Shown here one piece after another: positions 40,027 through 45,722 of a stretch of 64,000 bases of DNA (position 1 is its first letter; every line of letters begins with the position of its first letter). The notes under the pieces were generated by a model. That model saw nothing but the letters and a program-made list of their open reading frames with translations. It was not told where the DNA came from and searched no databases. The position numbers were made by a program, and so were the translations under genes. The DNA lies in contig NZ_JAANAS010000061.1 of the NCBI RefSeq assembly GCF_011089875.1, positions 1 to 64,000 of the forward strand, written 5' to 3'. Source of the DNA: Psychroflexus maritimus (GTDB lineage Bacteria; Bacteroidota; Bacteroidia; Flavobacteriales; Flavobacteriaceae).

Positions 40027-40377
40027 CCCTTCGATACAAATCGCTTAACAGCGATTCACTCAGGGACCTTTGTTCCTGATTTTAAAAGTGCCCTTCGGTA
40101 CAATCTCGTTAACACGAGATCACTCAGGGGCCTTTGTTCCTTGTTATAAAAAGTGGGCTTCGATACATTTTTATTTCGTTCCCTGAGTGTTCCGATGGTA
40201 ATCGGAATGTATCGAAGGGCGAACTAAAAACACTCAGCCACCTTTTAAAATACATTAAAGAAAAAAATTAATACTGAAAACTAATAATAGATCCCTGAGT
40301 AATTTTAAAAGGCTCCCTGAGTGATTTTGCGATAGCAAAATTGTATCGAAGGGTCTTTTTAAAATTGTATCGAAGGG
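40027..40377. repeat. Palindromic-unit array 2
   Basis: Complete 40-nt units lie at 40027-40066 (minus), 40091-40130 (minus), 40180-40219 (plus) and 40314-40353 (plus). Stems are AATCGCT, ATCTCGT, TTCCGAT and ATTTTGC. The unit at 40314 is nested in a larger palindrome with halves at 40292-40313 and 40354-40377, exactly as in array 1. Much of the array, including the spacers (CAGCCACCTTTTAAAATAC), is a long direct repeat of array 1. No gene is seen in 39981-40390 otherwise. Confidence 0.9.
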
Positions 40378-40699
40378 CCGACTCACAAAAATGAAAGCCT
40401 ATACCTACATTCTCAAATGTTCAAATGGTAGTTATTATGTGGGGAGTACAAAAGATTTGAATAGAAGAATTGAAGAGCATCAATCAGGGGAAGGAGCCAA
40501 GCATACTAAAAAGTATTTGCCCGTAGAATTGATTTATTACGAAGAATACACCAGAATAGATGATGCTTTTTATAGGGAAAAACAACTTCAAAAGTGGAGT
40601 AGAAAGAAAAAAGAGGCCTTAATCAATGGGAATATGAAATTATTACCAGATTTAGCTAAGAAAGTATTTGTTAGCTAACCACCCGGCCCTTCGATACAA
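40365..40699. mobile_element. GIY-YIG gene between inverted palindrome arms
   Basis: The 16-bp TTGTATCGAAGGGCCG (40365-40380) recurs exactly inverted at 40684-40699. Both are right arms of the palindromic units plus CCG. Between them lies only the GIY-YIG gene. The layout mirrors the 291-bp insert at 42477. Mobility is inferred; no empty site or target duplication can be shown here. Confidence 0.5.
40391..40678 (+). CDS. Small GIY-YIG nuclease-domain protein A
   Basis: A 95-residue single-domain protein of the COG2827 (URI/GIY-YIG) group. The YTYILKCSNGSYYVGSTKDL segment contains the paired YI and YVG motifs. A conserved Arg follows in LNRRIEEH, and FYREKQLQKWSRKKK is the typical end. Related domains cut DNA using a single metal ion. 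The gene is not linked to ugd or rfbA by function. It begins 10 bp after one palindrome arm and ends 5 bp before an inverted arm, so it may act on or move these palindromes. Confidence 0.85.
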   Translation: MKAYTYILKCSNGSYYVGSTKDLNRRIEEHQSGEGAKHTKKYLPVELIYYEEYTRIDDAFYREKQLQKWSRKKKEALINGNMKLLPDLAKKVFVS

Positions 40700-41237: not shown

Positions 41238-41283
41238 GCGAAACCCCCCTTGGGGGGGCAGGGGGGAATTCAACAGTTAACCT
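41238..41283 (+). repeat. 46-bp G/C-run repeat inside fcl remnant A
   Basis: Exact copy of 45331-45376. It contains C-run, TTG, G-run, CAG, G-run and runs straight into fcl coding sequence. It is translated in frame in both places, and the flanking fcl sequence suggests it entered the gene before duplication. Confidence 0.8.
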
Positions 41284-41693
41284 TTGGGGAAGTGGCACAC
41301 CCATGCGCGAATTCCTACACGTAGACGACCTGGCAGAGGCGGTTTCTTTTGCTTTAGAACATAAATTAGAAGAAAACTTGTACAACATTGGTACAGGGAA
41401 AGACTTAACCATCAAAGAACTCGCAGAAACCATACAAGAAATCGTTGGCCACAAAGGAGAAATCATCTGGGATAGCTCCAAACCAGACGGAACACCTCGG
41501 AAGCTGATGGATGTATCAAAAATGAATGCCCAGGGTTGGGAGGCGAAGATTGACTTGAAGGAAGGAATAAAAGAAACGTATAAATGGTTTTTGGTCAAAG
41601 AAAGGGAGTTTAAGGAAGTCAAGATTAAAAGCTCTAACCTCTAAACCTTTAGCATGAGTTTGAAGAAAGGTATAACTTAGAACCCAAAAGCAA

Positions 41694-42476
41694 ATGACCG
41701 AAAACAACCGAATAGAATATAAAAAACAAGTAACCGACATGTTCGAAAAAGAAGTCGTTGCATTTTTAAACTATATCGGAGGAGGAATCATTTATATTGG
41801 AATAGACGATGATGGTTCTGTTGTAGGTATTGAAAATTCTGATAAACTACAGCTACAAATTAAAGACCGTATAAGAAACAATATTTCTCCATCATGCATG
41901 GGGCTTTTTGATATTGTTGAAGAATATAGAGAAGAAAAACCGGTAATAAAGTTAATCGTAGCGAGCGGACAAGAACGACCATACTACATTAAGAAATACG
42001 GAATGTCATCAAAAGGAGCATTCATGAGAAATGGAAGCGCTTCAGAGCCGATGACCGGGAGAATGATAGAAGACCTATTTTCAAAAAGAATAAAAACTTC
42101 TATCGGTAAAATAGAATCACCAAATCAGGAGTTGAAATTTGAACAACTTCGGATTTATTACGACACAATAGGAAAACCTCTAAAAAAACAATTTGCTAAA
42201 TCTTTAGAGCTTTTAAATCCAGATAAAAAATACAATTATGTAGCGTATTTGTTGGCTGATAACAATAACGTTTCTGTAAAAGTAGCGAAATACGCTGATA
42301 CATCACGAGTTGATTTGGTACAAAATGAAGAGTTTGGTTACTGCTCATTGATAAAGGCCACTAAACTAGTACTTGACAAAATAGATGTTGAAAATAAAAC
42401 TTTTACGAAGATTACTTCAAAAGAACGCTTGGAAAAAAAGCAATGGGATACTGTTGCCCTGAGAGAAGCAGTTATT
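41694..42476 (+). pseudogene. AlbA_2/HTH protein gene, 5' part, split by an insert
   Basis: Residues of about 1-261 of a COG2865-type protein: a Schlafen-like AlbA_2 domain (RIEYKKQVTDMFEKEVVAFLNY, in part EYKKQVTDMFEKEVVAFLN, then GGGIIYIGIDDDGSVVGIEN) followed by an ATPase-like region up to ALREAVI. In relatives the text continues NAIVHNDYS. Here the 291-bp element at 42477 intervenes and the frame ends after DPVRYCIY at 42503. The rest resumes, in the same frame, at 42768. Such proteins are thought to be nucleic-acid-linked regulators. It lies 49 bp after fcl remnant A. Confidence 0.8.
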
Positions 42477-42767
42477 GACCCCGTTAGATATTGTATTTAT
42501 TAAAAAATTGGTGATGTATTATGTGTATGTCTTAAGAAGTGAAGTAGATAATAATTTCTATGTTGGATATTCCAGTAATTTGGAAAATAGACTAATTCAA
42601 CACGAAAAAGGATTAGTAAATTCAACAAAAAACAGAAGACCTTTAGAATTAGTTTATTATGAGGGTTGTTTAAATCAACAAGATGCAACCCACAGGGAGA
42701 AATATCTCAAAACATCGTGGGGAAAACGTTATATAAAGAGTAGGTTGAAAAATTATCTAACGGGGTA
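42477..42767 (+). mobile_element. 291-bp GIY-YIG element with terminal inverted repeats
   Basis: ACCCCGTTAGATA at 42478-42490 is matched by its exact complement at 42754-42766. The insert splits the codons EAVI and NAMVHND of the AlbA_2 gene and is 97 codons long, so the outer frame is kept in phase but meets a stop. Only one gene, a GIY-YIG nuclease, lies inside. The last four codons of that gene (YLTG) are the right inverted repeat. No target duplication is visible at the joints. Confidence 0.8.
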
Positions 42768-42768
42768 A
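42514..42768 (+). CDS. Small GIY-YIG nuclease-domain protein B
   Basis: An 84-residue single GIY-YIG domain: YYVYVLRSEVDNNFYVGYSS carries the Y-V-Y and YVG motifs, then NRLIQHEKG with the conserved Arg, and a basic end KSRLKNYLTG-like (here IKSRLKNYLTG). It starts at ATG 42514, 23 nt after the left terminal repeat. The stop codon spans the element's right boundary. It belongs to the same broad COG2827 group as protein A at 40391 but is a different branch. It is the only candidate mobility enzyme of the element around it. Confidence 0.85.
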   Translation: MYYVYVLRSEVDNNFYVGYSSNLENRLIQHEKGLVNSTKNRRPLELVYYEGCLNQQDATHREKYLKTSWGKRYIKSRLKNYLTG

Positions 42769-43295
42769 ATGCTATGGTACACAATGACTATTCGTATGAA
42801 TTAGCTCCAAAGTTTGAATTTTTCTCTGATCGTTTTGAAATTACATCTTATGGAGGTTTACCACAAGGCCTTTCTAAAGAAGAGTTTTTCTTAGGAGTAT
42901 CTATTCCTAGAAGTAAAGAAATAATGCGTATTTACAGAGATATGGAATTAGTAGAACAACTAGGTTCCGGTGTGCCAAGAATTCTAAAAACTTATGGAGA
43001 GGAATGTTTCTACTTTTCAGAAAACTTTGTTAGGATGAGTTTCCCTGCTGAAAAGGTCGTAGAAAAAGTCGTAGAAAAGGTCGTAGAAAAGGTCGTAGAA
43101 AAAATATCAGAAAATCAAATGAAAATAGTAGAATTAATGAATCAAGACTCAAGTATCTCGGCGCTACAAATTTCAAAAGAAATAGGAATTTCACAACGAA
43201 AGACACAAGAAAATATTGCAAAACTTAAAGAACTAGAAATTATCGAACGAATCGGACCAGCCAAAGGCGGCTATTGGAAGCTATTAAAGAAATAA
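42768..43295 (+). pseudogene. AlbA_2/HTH protein gene, 3' part
   Basis: Continuation of the gene interrupted at 42476: NAMVHNDYSYELAPKFEFF, then EITSYGGLPQGLSKEEFF and IPRSKEIMRIYRDMEL. A linker of VVEK repeats (four to five copies of a 12-bp unit near 43053-43103) leads to a winged-helix domain ending GPAKGGYWKLLKK. An ATG at 42774 would allow a separate 173-residue C-terminal protein. Its last codons overlap a 69-bp sequence that starts the next cassette. Confidence 0.75.
42915..42983 (+). repeat. 69-bp repeat, copy 1 (codes KEIMRIYRDMEL)
   Basis: Identical to 43286-43354. Its first part also recurs with upstream flank at 43731-43781. It encodes the conserved C-terminal motif of the AlbA_2 protein and marks the junctions of the cassettes that follow. 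Confidence 0.9.
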
Positions 43296-43797: not shown

Positions 43798-44033
43798 GTA
43801 AGTGTATTACCATCAAAGAACTCGCAGAAACCATACAAGAAATCGTTGGCCACAAAGGAGAAATCATCTGGGATAGCTCCAAACCAGACGGAACACCTCG
43901 GAAGCTGATGGATGTATCAAAAATAAAAGCACAGGGTTGGGAGGCGAAGATTGATTTGAAGGAAGGAATAAAAGAAACGTATAAATGGTTTTTGGTCAAC
44001 GAAACAGATTTCAAAGAAGTCAAAATCAATTAA
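43798..44033 (+). pseudogene. 3' remnant B of GDP-L-fucose synthase
   Basis: Codes ITIKELAETIQEIVGHKGEI and the following C-terminal end of fcl. The nucleotide sequence from about 43810 is nearly identical to remnant A from 41418, which points to a recent duplication. Only about 75 codons remain. It is fused in frame to the AlbA_2 fragment before it. Confidence 0.75.
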
Positions 44034-44103: not shown

Positions 44104-45297
44104 ATGAAACAAATAAATAGACCACAATATTTGCAATTTCTTACATCATGGAAGGATGAAGATGTAATTAAAGTAGTGTCGGGAGTTCGACGCTGCGGGA
44201 AGTCTACCTTATTTGAAATGTTTAAACAACAGCTACGAAATGAAGGAGTAAAGGAAGATCAAATCATTAGCATCAACTTTGAAGATATTAATTTCGACAA
44301 CCTTCTCACCCCAACAGCCTTAAATAACTATATAAAGGAACGCATACAAGAGAAAAACAACTATTATGTTTTTTTAGATGAAATTCAAAATGTTACTGCC
44401 TTTGAGCGGGTAGTAAATAGCTTACAACTGAATAAAAATCTAGACATCTATCTCACTGGTTCTAATGCTTATTTTTTAAGTGGTGAGCTAGCTACTTTAT
44501 TAACGGGTAGATACGTAGAACTAAAAATGTTGCCCTTATCATTTAAGGAATACCTTACGGTGAACAAGAATGAAAACCAACTTGAAGCCTATAATAATTA
44601 CCTTAAGTCTAGTTTTCCTTACGCCATAACACTAGATGAACTAAAAAAACGTCAGTATTTAGAGGGGATTTATTCGACAGTTGTATTAAAAGATATTGTA
44701 AAACGTTTAGGTGTAGCGGATGTAAGTGTTTTGGAGCAATTAATCCGTTATATGTATGCTGAAATCGGTAACCTGCACAGCATTAACAAAATAACAAATA
44801 CCTTAAACAGTTCGGGAAGTAAGATTACCAACAAAACAGTAGCAAATTATGTAAGCGGTATTGAAGACAGCATGTTGGTCTATCGTGCTGATCGTTATAA
44901 TGTGAAAGGTAGAAAAGTTTTTTCGAGTAATTCGAAATATTATGCGGTAGATATTGGTCTCCGCCGATTAATCGCTGGAGATAGAACGGAAGATTATGGA
45001 CATATCCTAGAAAATATTATCTATTTGGAATTGTTGAGAAGAGGATATCAAGTGTTCGTAGGTGTGGTGGATAACTTGGAAGTAGATTTCTTGGCTATCG
45101 GATCAGGGGAAGAACGACTTTATATACAGGTTGCCTACTCCACTGAACAGGAGGAAACCTTAAAGCGTGAACTGCGGCCGTTAGAGCTTATAAAAGATAA
45201 TTACCCAAAGCTATTATTAACGATGGACACAGTCCTTCCCGAACAAAATTTTGGAGGAATACAAAAAACAAATGCATTAAACTGGCTAGCGAATTAG
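44104..45297 (+). CDS. AAA ATPase with DUF4143
   Basis: A 397-residue protein of the AAA_14/DUF4143 group. The Walker A motif is GVRRCGKST, Walker B is YYVFLDEIQN, and LTGSNAYFLSGELATLLTGR follows. The C-terminal DUF4143 half has a possible nuclease-like ending around NLEVDFLAIG and YIQVAYS, as in many members. These proteins are common in accessory DNA of Bacteroidota; their role is not known. Here the gene lies intact between fcl remnants B and C, unrelated to sugar metabolism. A TATATTTG box directly before the ATG (44092-44099) would give a leaderless transcript. Confidence 0.88.
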   Translation: MKQINRPQYLQFLTSWKDEDVIKVVSGVRRCGKSTLFEMFKQQLRNEGVKEDQIISINFEDINFDNLLTPTALNNYIKERIQEKNNYYVFLDEIQNVTAFERVVNSLQLNKNLDIYLTGSNAYFLSGELATLLTGRYVELKMLPLSFKEYLTVNKNENQLEAYNNYLKSSFPYAITLDELKKRQYLEGIYSTVVLKDIVKRLGVADVSVLEQLIRYMYAEIGNLHSINKITNTLNSSGSKITNKTVANYVSGIEDSMLVYRADRYNVKGRKVFSSNSKYYAVDIGLRRLIAGDRTEDYGHILENIIYLELLRRGYQVFVGVVDNLEVDFLAIGSGEERLYIQVAYSTEQEETLKRELRPLELIKDNYPKLLLTMDTVLPEQNFGGIQKTNALNWLAN

Positions 45298-45311: not shown

Positions 45312-45722
45312 GCGAATCGGGAAGCCAACAGCGAAACCCCCCTTGGGGGGGCAGGGGGGAATTCAACAGTTAACCTATGGGGTTCCGGTGCTCCCATGCG
45401 CGAATTCCTACACGTAGACGACCTGGCGGAAGCGGTGTCTTTTGCTCTAGAGCATCAACTAGACGAAAACTTATATAATGTTGGAACAGGTACAGACCTC
45501 ACTATTAAAGAACTTGCAGAAACCATTCAGGAGATCGTTGGCCACGAAAGCGATATCCAATGGGACAGCAGCAAACCCGATGGCACGCCGCGAAAACTCA
45601 TGGACGTCTCCAAAATGAATGCCCAGGGCTGGGAGGCAAAAATTGACCTGAAAGAAGGCATCCGAGACACTTACCAGTGGTTTTTTGATAAAAAAATCGT
45701 ATCGAGAACAAATTCATATTGA
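45312..45722 (+). pseudogene. 3' remnant C of GDP-L-fucose synthase
   Basis: The frame opens around 45312 and includes the same in-frame G/C-run insertion (SETPLGGAGGNST) before VNLWGSGAPMREFLHVDDLA and the fcl C-terminus ending in EGIRDTYQWFF. It is more diverged from remnants A and B than they are from each other. The N-terminal Rossmann fold and YxxxK are absent. An ATG at 45396 exists, but the product would be inactive. Confidence 0.75.
45331..45376 (+). repeat. 46-bp G/C-run repeat inside fcl remnant C
   Basis: Exact copy of 41238-41283. See there for its content. Confidence 0.8.

Follow-up and report, generated by a model that had tools for sequence, protein, structure and literature searches.

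The 64,000-nt stretch of Psychroflexus maritimus DNA analysed here (the window) carries a 291-nt insert that consists of one GIY-YIG nuclease gene enclosed by two inverted repeats of ~13 nt. We propose, with a probability of roughly 60%, that this unit is a minimal autonomous mobile element driven by its own nuclease. The unit is real, mobile and widespread, given that terminal inverted repeats (TIRs) recur among its relatives, the repeat arms co-vary, gene-less palindromes share its ends and, at one pair of loci (L073/L078), the element is more alike than the gene around it. The nuclease is likely to drive the movement, as judged from sequence comparisons.

The insert, its ends and its empty site

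The insert occupies positions 42477-42767 of the plus strand and is composed of a G, a 289-nt core and an A. It splits an AlbA_2/HATPase gene of the same strand at GTTATT|AATGCT into a 5' part (41694-42476) and a 3' part (42768-43295), in which Pfam, applied to the two pieces separately, identifies SLFN_AlbA_2 and HATPase_c_4 plus HTH_24, respectively. The host translation reads LREAVI to the left of the insert and NAMVHNDY to the right, and the host frame is broken on both sides. The left target side ends in ..TATT (42473-42476) and the right begins with AATG.. (42768-42771), which places the TT and AA of a TT|AA-like target at 42475-42476 and 42768-42769 of the plus strand. A search of 199 genomes, the window's own among them, with the joined 103-aa AlbA_2 piece (E<=1e-25) yielded 12 uninterrupted genes in 11 genomes besides the window's own. 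All 12 matches span exactly 309 nt and have, at the junction, AAT or AAC behind an Ile or Leu codon. Because these homologues read through the junction, the insert is defined at codon level as G + 289 + A; its excision restores their frame, and the comparison reveals neither a target duplication nor a lost base.

The left TIR, ACCCCGTTAGATA (42478-42490, plus strand), and the right TIR, TATCTAACGGGGT (42754-42766, plus strand), are perfectly complementary over 13 nt, and the arms are 94% complementary over 17 nt. The right TIR also encodes YLTG, the last codons of the nuclease, and contributes its last base as the first base of the stop codon. Exact copies of the TIR are limited to this pair in the window and in the 2.59-Mb genome (one forward, one reverse), and an exact-TIR scan of 199 family genomes found a match in seven, including the window's own. 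With up to three mismatches, the window contains 11 matches against 11.06 expected from shuffling, a figure that has no bearing on the exact pair. The window genome holds one copy of the unit; its four other GIY-YIG matches are at most 38% identical, and its GIY-YIG relatives on other contigs (L003-L005) have no comparable repeat, the longest being 9 nt.

These results bear out the earlier note on this DNA, which was made from the letters. It had described 13-bp TIRs, an initial G, a closing complement plus A and a right repeat made of the YLTG codons, all of which are correct to the base. It had also placed the cut between EAVI and NAMVHND, with a normal join once the insert is removed and no visible target duplication, and the 12 read-through homologues agree to the codon. 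Uninterrupted genes, the empty sites that it had suggested looking for, exist, and the inserted stretch, which it had considered might belong naturally to AlbA_2 homologues, is missing from all 12.

Rfam matched no family at 42200-43050 (E<=1), which indicates that no known intron fold is present, rules out an intron or ribozyme known to Rfam and fits the earlier failure to recognize an intron fold. Only 37 nt of the insert lie 5' of the nuclease gene, and this Rfam search found no catalytic RNA core of a group I intron. An origin in phage or plasmid records was also rejected, with no tblastn match at 1e-5 in either collection.

The window contains further repeated structures. A second, different GIY-YIG gene (40391-40678) is framed at 40365-40699 by a perfect 16-nt inverted repeat, TTGTATCGAAGGGCCG and its complement, in an architecture similar to that of the 291-nt insert and with unrelated ends; its arms are members of a local family of repeats that is matched 10 times in the window (<=3 mismatches), where 0.23 matches are expected. 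The 3' part of one gene, which we take to be GDP-fucose-synthase-like, is repeated at 41272-41644, 43800-44033 and 45396-45722 after cargo genes, namely the interrupted AlbA_2 gene and an ATPase gene (44104-45297) that matches PADLOC PDC-S01 at 2e-153. Fragments of the AlbA_2 C-terminus are found again near 42900, 43283 and 43745.

The GIY-YIG protein

The nuclease gene (42514-42768, plus strand) encodes an 84-aa protein with a UPF0213/SLX1-like fold, and its translation from 42508 matches the Pfam GIY-YIG family with an E-value of 4e-16. It is the sole matched ORF of the insert, as the earlier note had stated. Residues Y16, G18, H30 and E62 are invariant and R26 is nearly so among 31 sequences; we take these to be the catalytic positions of the GIY-YIG domain. 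The nuclease is conserved, with a median dN/dS of 0.081 (range 0.033-0.427) over the 42 overlapping pairs with usable dS, 33 more having none. The AF2 model has a pLDDT of 94.2. The UPF0213 structure 1zg2 is matched both by sequence (E 1.2e-9) and by Foldseek (9.1e-4), which also finds the SLX1 structure 6sei (3.3e-3), and UPF0213 proteins and SLX1, a structure-specific nuclease, rank before I-TevI as the nearest solved structures. The GIY-YIG domain makes up the whole protein; a DNA-binding domain apart from it was not found, and no PADLOC model matches. Neither a known transposase nor, with Pfam, a Y1 domain was found in the unit.

A family with conserved, co-varying ends

A family scan with a six-row alignment against the genomes of 84,980 species gave at least 577 confirmed relatives, of which the best 80 were analysed together with two from viral contigs. 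Inverted repeats scoring at least 10 enclose 75 of these 82 relatives, as opposed to 3 of 246 controls in which the left flank had been shuffled. The remaining seven score below 10, and the 75 include two loci that pair their repeats in the opposite orientation (L081 and L088) and two composites (L058 and L067). Two scans of viral contigs yielded four loci (L014, L015, L125 and L126), among which L125 has clear inverted repeats and L126 does not. Among 66 labelled rows, 22 phylum labels occur, including Bacteroidota, several Patescibacteria groups, Verrucomicrobiota and Ignavibacteriota. The nuclease tree, which leaves out L126, requires 30 phylum changes (minimum possible 21, shuffled mean 36.5); these changes alone are no proof of transfer because the branches are weakly supported (2 starred of 78) and many rows are bins.

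The ends were compared in 67 elements, after 16 of 83 (82 loci plus the window) had been dropped: five scoring below 9, four composite or oppositely paired and seven without the outer A. Their consensus is TT Y[ACCC Y G T N A R A T A ... T A T Y T N A C R G G G T]R AA, with a core of 265-317 nt. The flanking TT on the left is T in 66 and 65 of the 67 elements, and the AA on the right is A in 61 and 65. Furthermore, the two arms change together: position 5 is C/C in 33 or T/T in 30 elements (3 breaks), position 8 is T/T in 37, G/G in 21 or C/C in 5 (3 breaks), and position 10 is A/A in 34 or G/G in 33 (0 breaks). This co-variation indicates that complementarity is kept, even with the left arm ahead of the gene. 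The outermost base pair (left/right) is mostly mismatched and takes two mirror forms, C/A (24) and T/G (21), with T/A in 8, C/G in 3 and other pairs in 11 elements (Fisher p 3e-6). The mismatch sits exactly at the boundary between insert and target and might mark a strand or a cut. The nuclease tree shows a loose clustering of its two forms (equalled in 2 of 500 shuffles), and the TIR letters cluster as well (0 of 500), which is partly simple inheritance since TIR and nuclease are physically linked.

The suggestion in the earlier note of a minimal mobile unit thus stands: many copies exist, ends are constant in kind, length is nearly constant and uninterrupted genes are found. Its own counter-case, copies of the gene that lack terminal repeats, is answered by the 75 repeat-bearing relatives, and its view that the nuclease moves its own gene is probable. 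The gene-less derivatives, the TT|AA flanks, the outer mismatch and the repeats around the second GIY-YIG gene of the window are additions to that note.

Gene-less palindromes

Palindromes of 31-52 nt that have the same ends but no gene occur in 9 of 40 host genomes, and a reversed-pattern control gave 0. The fetched loci contain 19 distinct gene-less palindromes of 31-62 nt, 11 of them flanked by TTY..RAA. One of the 19, the 62-nt palindrome of L046, retains ..SKRYIKNRIKNYLTG, the 3' end of the nuclease gene. Its site, the GHxxV|KTT position of a tyrosine recombinase, is occupied in L105 by a gene-bearing element with the same ATCCCG ends. Similarly, a 48-nt palindrome in L063 lies at an LRDNI| position that is occupied by a gene-bearing one in L049, and L069 carries one behind the same left flank. 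Shared descent with internal deletion explains both sets as well as independent insertion does.

At L073 and L078, a gene-less palindrome, ACCCTGTGAAAT..ATTTCACGGGGC, is located ~60 bp to the right of the element, apparently in frame in the 23S_rRNA_IVP-type gene.

Host genes, targets and junctions

Pfam names the interrupted gene in 14 of 34 hosts, which fall into eight different families: AlbA_2/HATPase_c_4 (the window, L045, L047 and L092), 23S_rRNA_IVP (L073, L114 and L124), YhcG nuclease (L055 and L070), phage integrase (L046), PDDEXK_3 (L059), HEPN (L051), Bro-N (L090) and Y2_Tnp (L125). Pfam gave no family for the hosts L049 and L064 or for a joined 60-aa piece of the window. The other 20 hosts were put by eye into the Pfam-named families or RHS-like genes, and the same motifs therefore seem to be hit repeatedly. 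The host families are clustered along the nuclease tree, which requires 11 changes against a shuffled mean of 20.0 (31 rows with partly by-eye labels; none of 500 shuffles gave so few).

By the same partly by-eye labels, the nuclease gene and its host are read in one direction in 33 of 34 cases (p 4e-9) and in 13 of the 14 Pfam-named ones. L094 was counted as co-oriented by eye although its longest frame is on the other strand; six loci with the longest frame on the minus strand (L062, L068, L076, L106, L107 and L121) and unrecognized genes were not counted as hosts. Either expression from the host transcript is selected or insertion is oriented.

Core plus 2 nt, the unit of the window, fits the host frame in 15 of 28 hosts; a further 7 call for one base and 6 for no base beyond the core (modulo 3), the host frames being the longest open ones and some cores being trimmed. 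By eye, GGGTAAATG stands at the right end of L062, L068, L071, L106, L108, L117, L121 and L122, as if just ahead of a start codon. Other junctions argue against a clean TT|AA model: L049 and L063 misfit such an insertion, L114 seems to have lost target bases and L061 may repeat CTT (3 bp), all by eye. The junction reading behind L114 and L061 favours one extra base per side by design, whereas the frame reading does not.

A subset of 25 family loci (L016-L040) shows other surroundings. The YF(T/I)G-type relatives of the window's family (L017-L021) are inserted at the ITGGAGF|IGS motif of host genes that are presumably nucleotide-sugar epimerase-like; by eye, a truncated gene start lies upstream and a complete start downstream, as if the element had supplied a new 5' end and restored the gene. 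A tRNA gene is present in the fetched ~3 kb of all 18 non-YF(T/I)G loci (L022 and L024-L040), and none was found in that of the other seven (L016-L021 and L023). Several of the 18 combine a disrupted 5' tRNA half on the upstream side with a complete tRNA on the downstream side, and tandem copies 300-314 bp apart occur in four genomes.

Evidence of movement

The elements of L073 and L078 are identical at 283 of 286 positions and lie at the same place in the same 23S_rRNA_IVP-type gene, which is itself only ~80% identical (114/147 on the left and 211/260 on the right). By this sequence contrast, the pair appears as one strong case of movement between genomes. Nine pairs were hand-picked for a common host family, and in each of them the element surpasses both flanks in similarity. 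The contrast is barely seen in L049/L053 and is strong in L064/L109 (235/285 for the element against 132/244 and 59/104 for the flanks); a slowly evolving nuclease could explain the milder cases.

Host genomes contain 1-5 relatives each at E<=1e-18, as counted in the 40 genomes of 40 of the best 80 loci. The most alike of 13 within-genome pairs agree at 246/282, 250/298 and 237/299 positions, the last two over a fixed 300-nt stretch. The flanks look unrelated in the first two pairs, and the left flanks are similar in the third. The figure for L177, which is cut at a contig end, is void.

Proposed mechanism and alternatives

What would move a unit of this size? In the proposed mechanism, the palindromic ends, which may form an extruded hairpin or cruciform, would be recognized by the UPF0213/SLX1-like nuclease, and this enzyme would cut TT|AA-like targets and probably the palindrome base as well. 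Host repair would then copy or join the unit into the break, with homing as the outcome where donor and target alleles share flanks and non-homologous insertion otherwise. Gene-less palindromes would be served by the nuclease in trans. GIY-YIG enzymes are hydrolytic nucleases, and non-homologous insertion would need an unnamed partner since we know of no GIY-YIG enzyme that joins DNA. According to the title of structure entry 6sei, SLX1 processes branched DNA, and a hairpin or cruciform formed by the palindromic ends would thus be plausible as a substrate.

Alternatively, the unit may spread by homing only: the nuclease would cut the empty allele, homologous repair would copy the unit without any transposition, and the repeats would be part of the recognition site or a feature of transcription or RNA. 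We regard this as rather unlikely. The L073/L078 pair does resemble recent homing, by eye, particular positions in particular host genes are used repeatedly, host families cluster on the nuclease tree and the gene follows the orientation of its host (33 of 34 by our own labels, 13 of 14 Pfam-named). However, insertions in eight Pfam-named host families suggest that a non-homologous route is used as well, and homing does not readily produce units 84-87% alike at different loci within one genome or gene-less palindromes at many sites.

In a second alternative, the repeats are REP/MITE-like palindromes that are moved by another transposase, such as a Y1 RAYT, and the GIY-YIG gene is mere cargo. 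Gene-less palindromes exist, as such a passenger would lead one to expect, and a scan for Y1_Tnp found genes in 34 of 41 genomes (the 40 host genomes and the window's, which is among the 34). The other seven gave no Y1_Tnp match, although their assemblies may be incomplete, and three of them (G207, G223 and G235) nonetheless have gene-less palindromes. Moreover, such repeats enclose one and the same nuclease lineage in 75 of 82 relatives, with 22 phylum labels, and we consider a passenger role improbable. Finally, repeats that flank an ordinary small gene by coincidence, and likewise an assembly artefact, can be dismissed. One 13-nt pair in one draft genome might arise by chance, but the repeats of 75 of 82 relatives, set beside those of 3 of 246 shuffled controls, rule out a chance repeat, and the gene-less palindromes, arm co-variation and 12 of 12 read-through homologues also stand against both.

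If the nuclease drives movement, the unit, with ~290 bp, 84 aa and no known transposase, would be among the smallest autonomous mobile elements. It would then link a concrete enzyme to the spread of short palindromic repeats through bacterial genomes, a process still to be explained, and would assign a role to many genes that Pfam names only GIY-YIG. The proposed mechanism, if true, also represents a transposase-free route for the proliferation of palindromic repeats, including inside coding genes.

Comparison with known mobile elements

Among the open-access papers listed in full-text searches, none describes, as judged by its title or the beginning of its abstract, a bacterial TIR-bounded GIY-YIG unit, and the earlier note likewise knew of none. 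A term search of a review on prokaryotic MITEs (PMC10969869) gave no mention of GIY-YIG. The unit has some of the defining features of every mobile-element family with which it was compared and lacks others.

GIY-YIG homing endonucleases (I-TevI, Seg and T5orf172) resemble the unit in their catalytic domain, recurrent sites in conserved genes and selfish spread; they are free-standing or intron-borne (phage homing-nuclease survey, PMC10448857). Unlike these, the unit encodes only 84 aa, in which no separate DNA-binding domain was identified, has TIRs, gene-less derivatives and no known intron, and leaves its host gene broken, without survival via an intron, an intein or adjacency.

The Tsy transposon also carries a GIY-YIG nuclease gene; however, as reported in PMC10293859, it requires a tyrosine recombinase, and removal of the nuclease impairs transposition without the nuclease being essential. 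In eukaryotic elements, GIY-YIG is part of Penelope-like ones and Terminons according to a TE classification (PMC5718144). Penelope-like retroelements are mobile with a GIY-YIG endonuclease, as is the unit, but they are eukaryotic and have a reverse transcriptase.

REP/RAYT and REPIN elements share palindromic ends and the occurrence of gene-less palindromes beside a gene-bearing form. In contrast, the enzyme of the unit is a GIY-YIG nuclease and not a Y1 HUH transposase, and its end consensus contains no GTAG tag. Rickettsia palindromic elements lodge in frame within coding genes, and L073 and L078 appear to hold such an in-frame palindrome; we know of no nuclease-bearing form of those elements.

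Insertion sequences and MITEs are like the unit in TIRs, a single gene and an internally deleted, non-autonomous copy. Compared with classical insertion sequences, the unit lacks a known transposase and, in the window, a target duplication, a feature that is absent from some DNA transposon and insertion sequence families, and it is well under the usual insertion sequence size. Only the gene-less forms fit a known kind: as short non-coding copies with the TIRs of a gene-bearing element, they are MITEs. The unit probably represents a new class of autonomous bacterial mobile element, in which an SLX1-like GIY-YIG nuclease of one domain would act as the sole enzyme on palindromic ends, insert at TT|AA-like targets without duplication, spread across phyla and give rise to REP/MITE-like palindromes.
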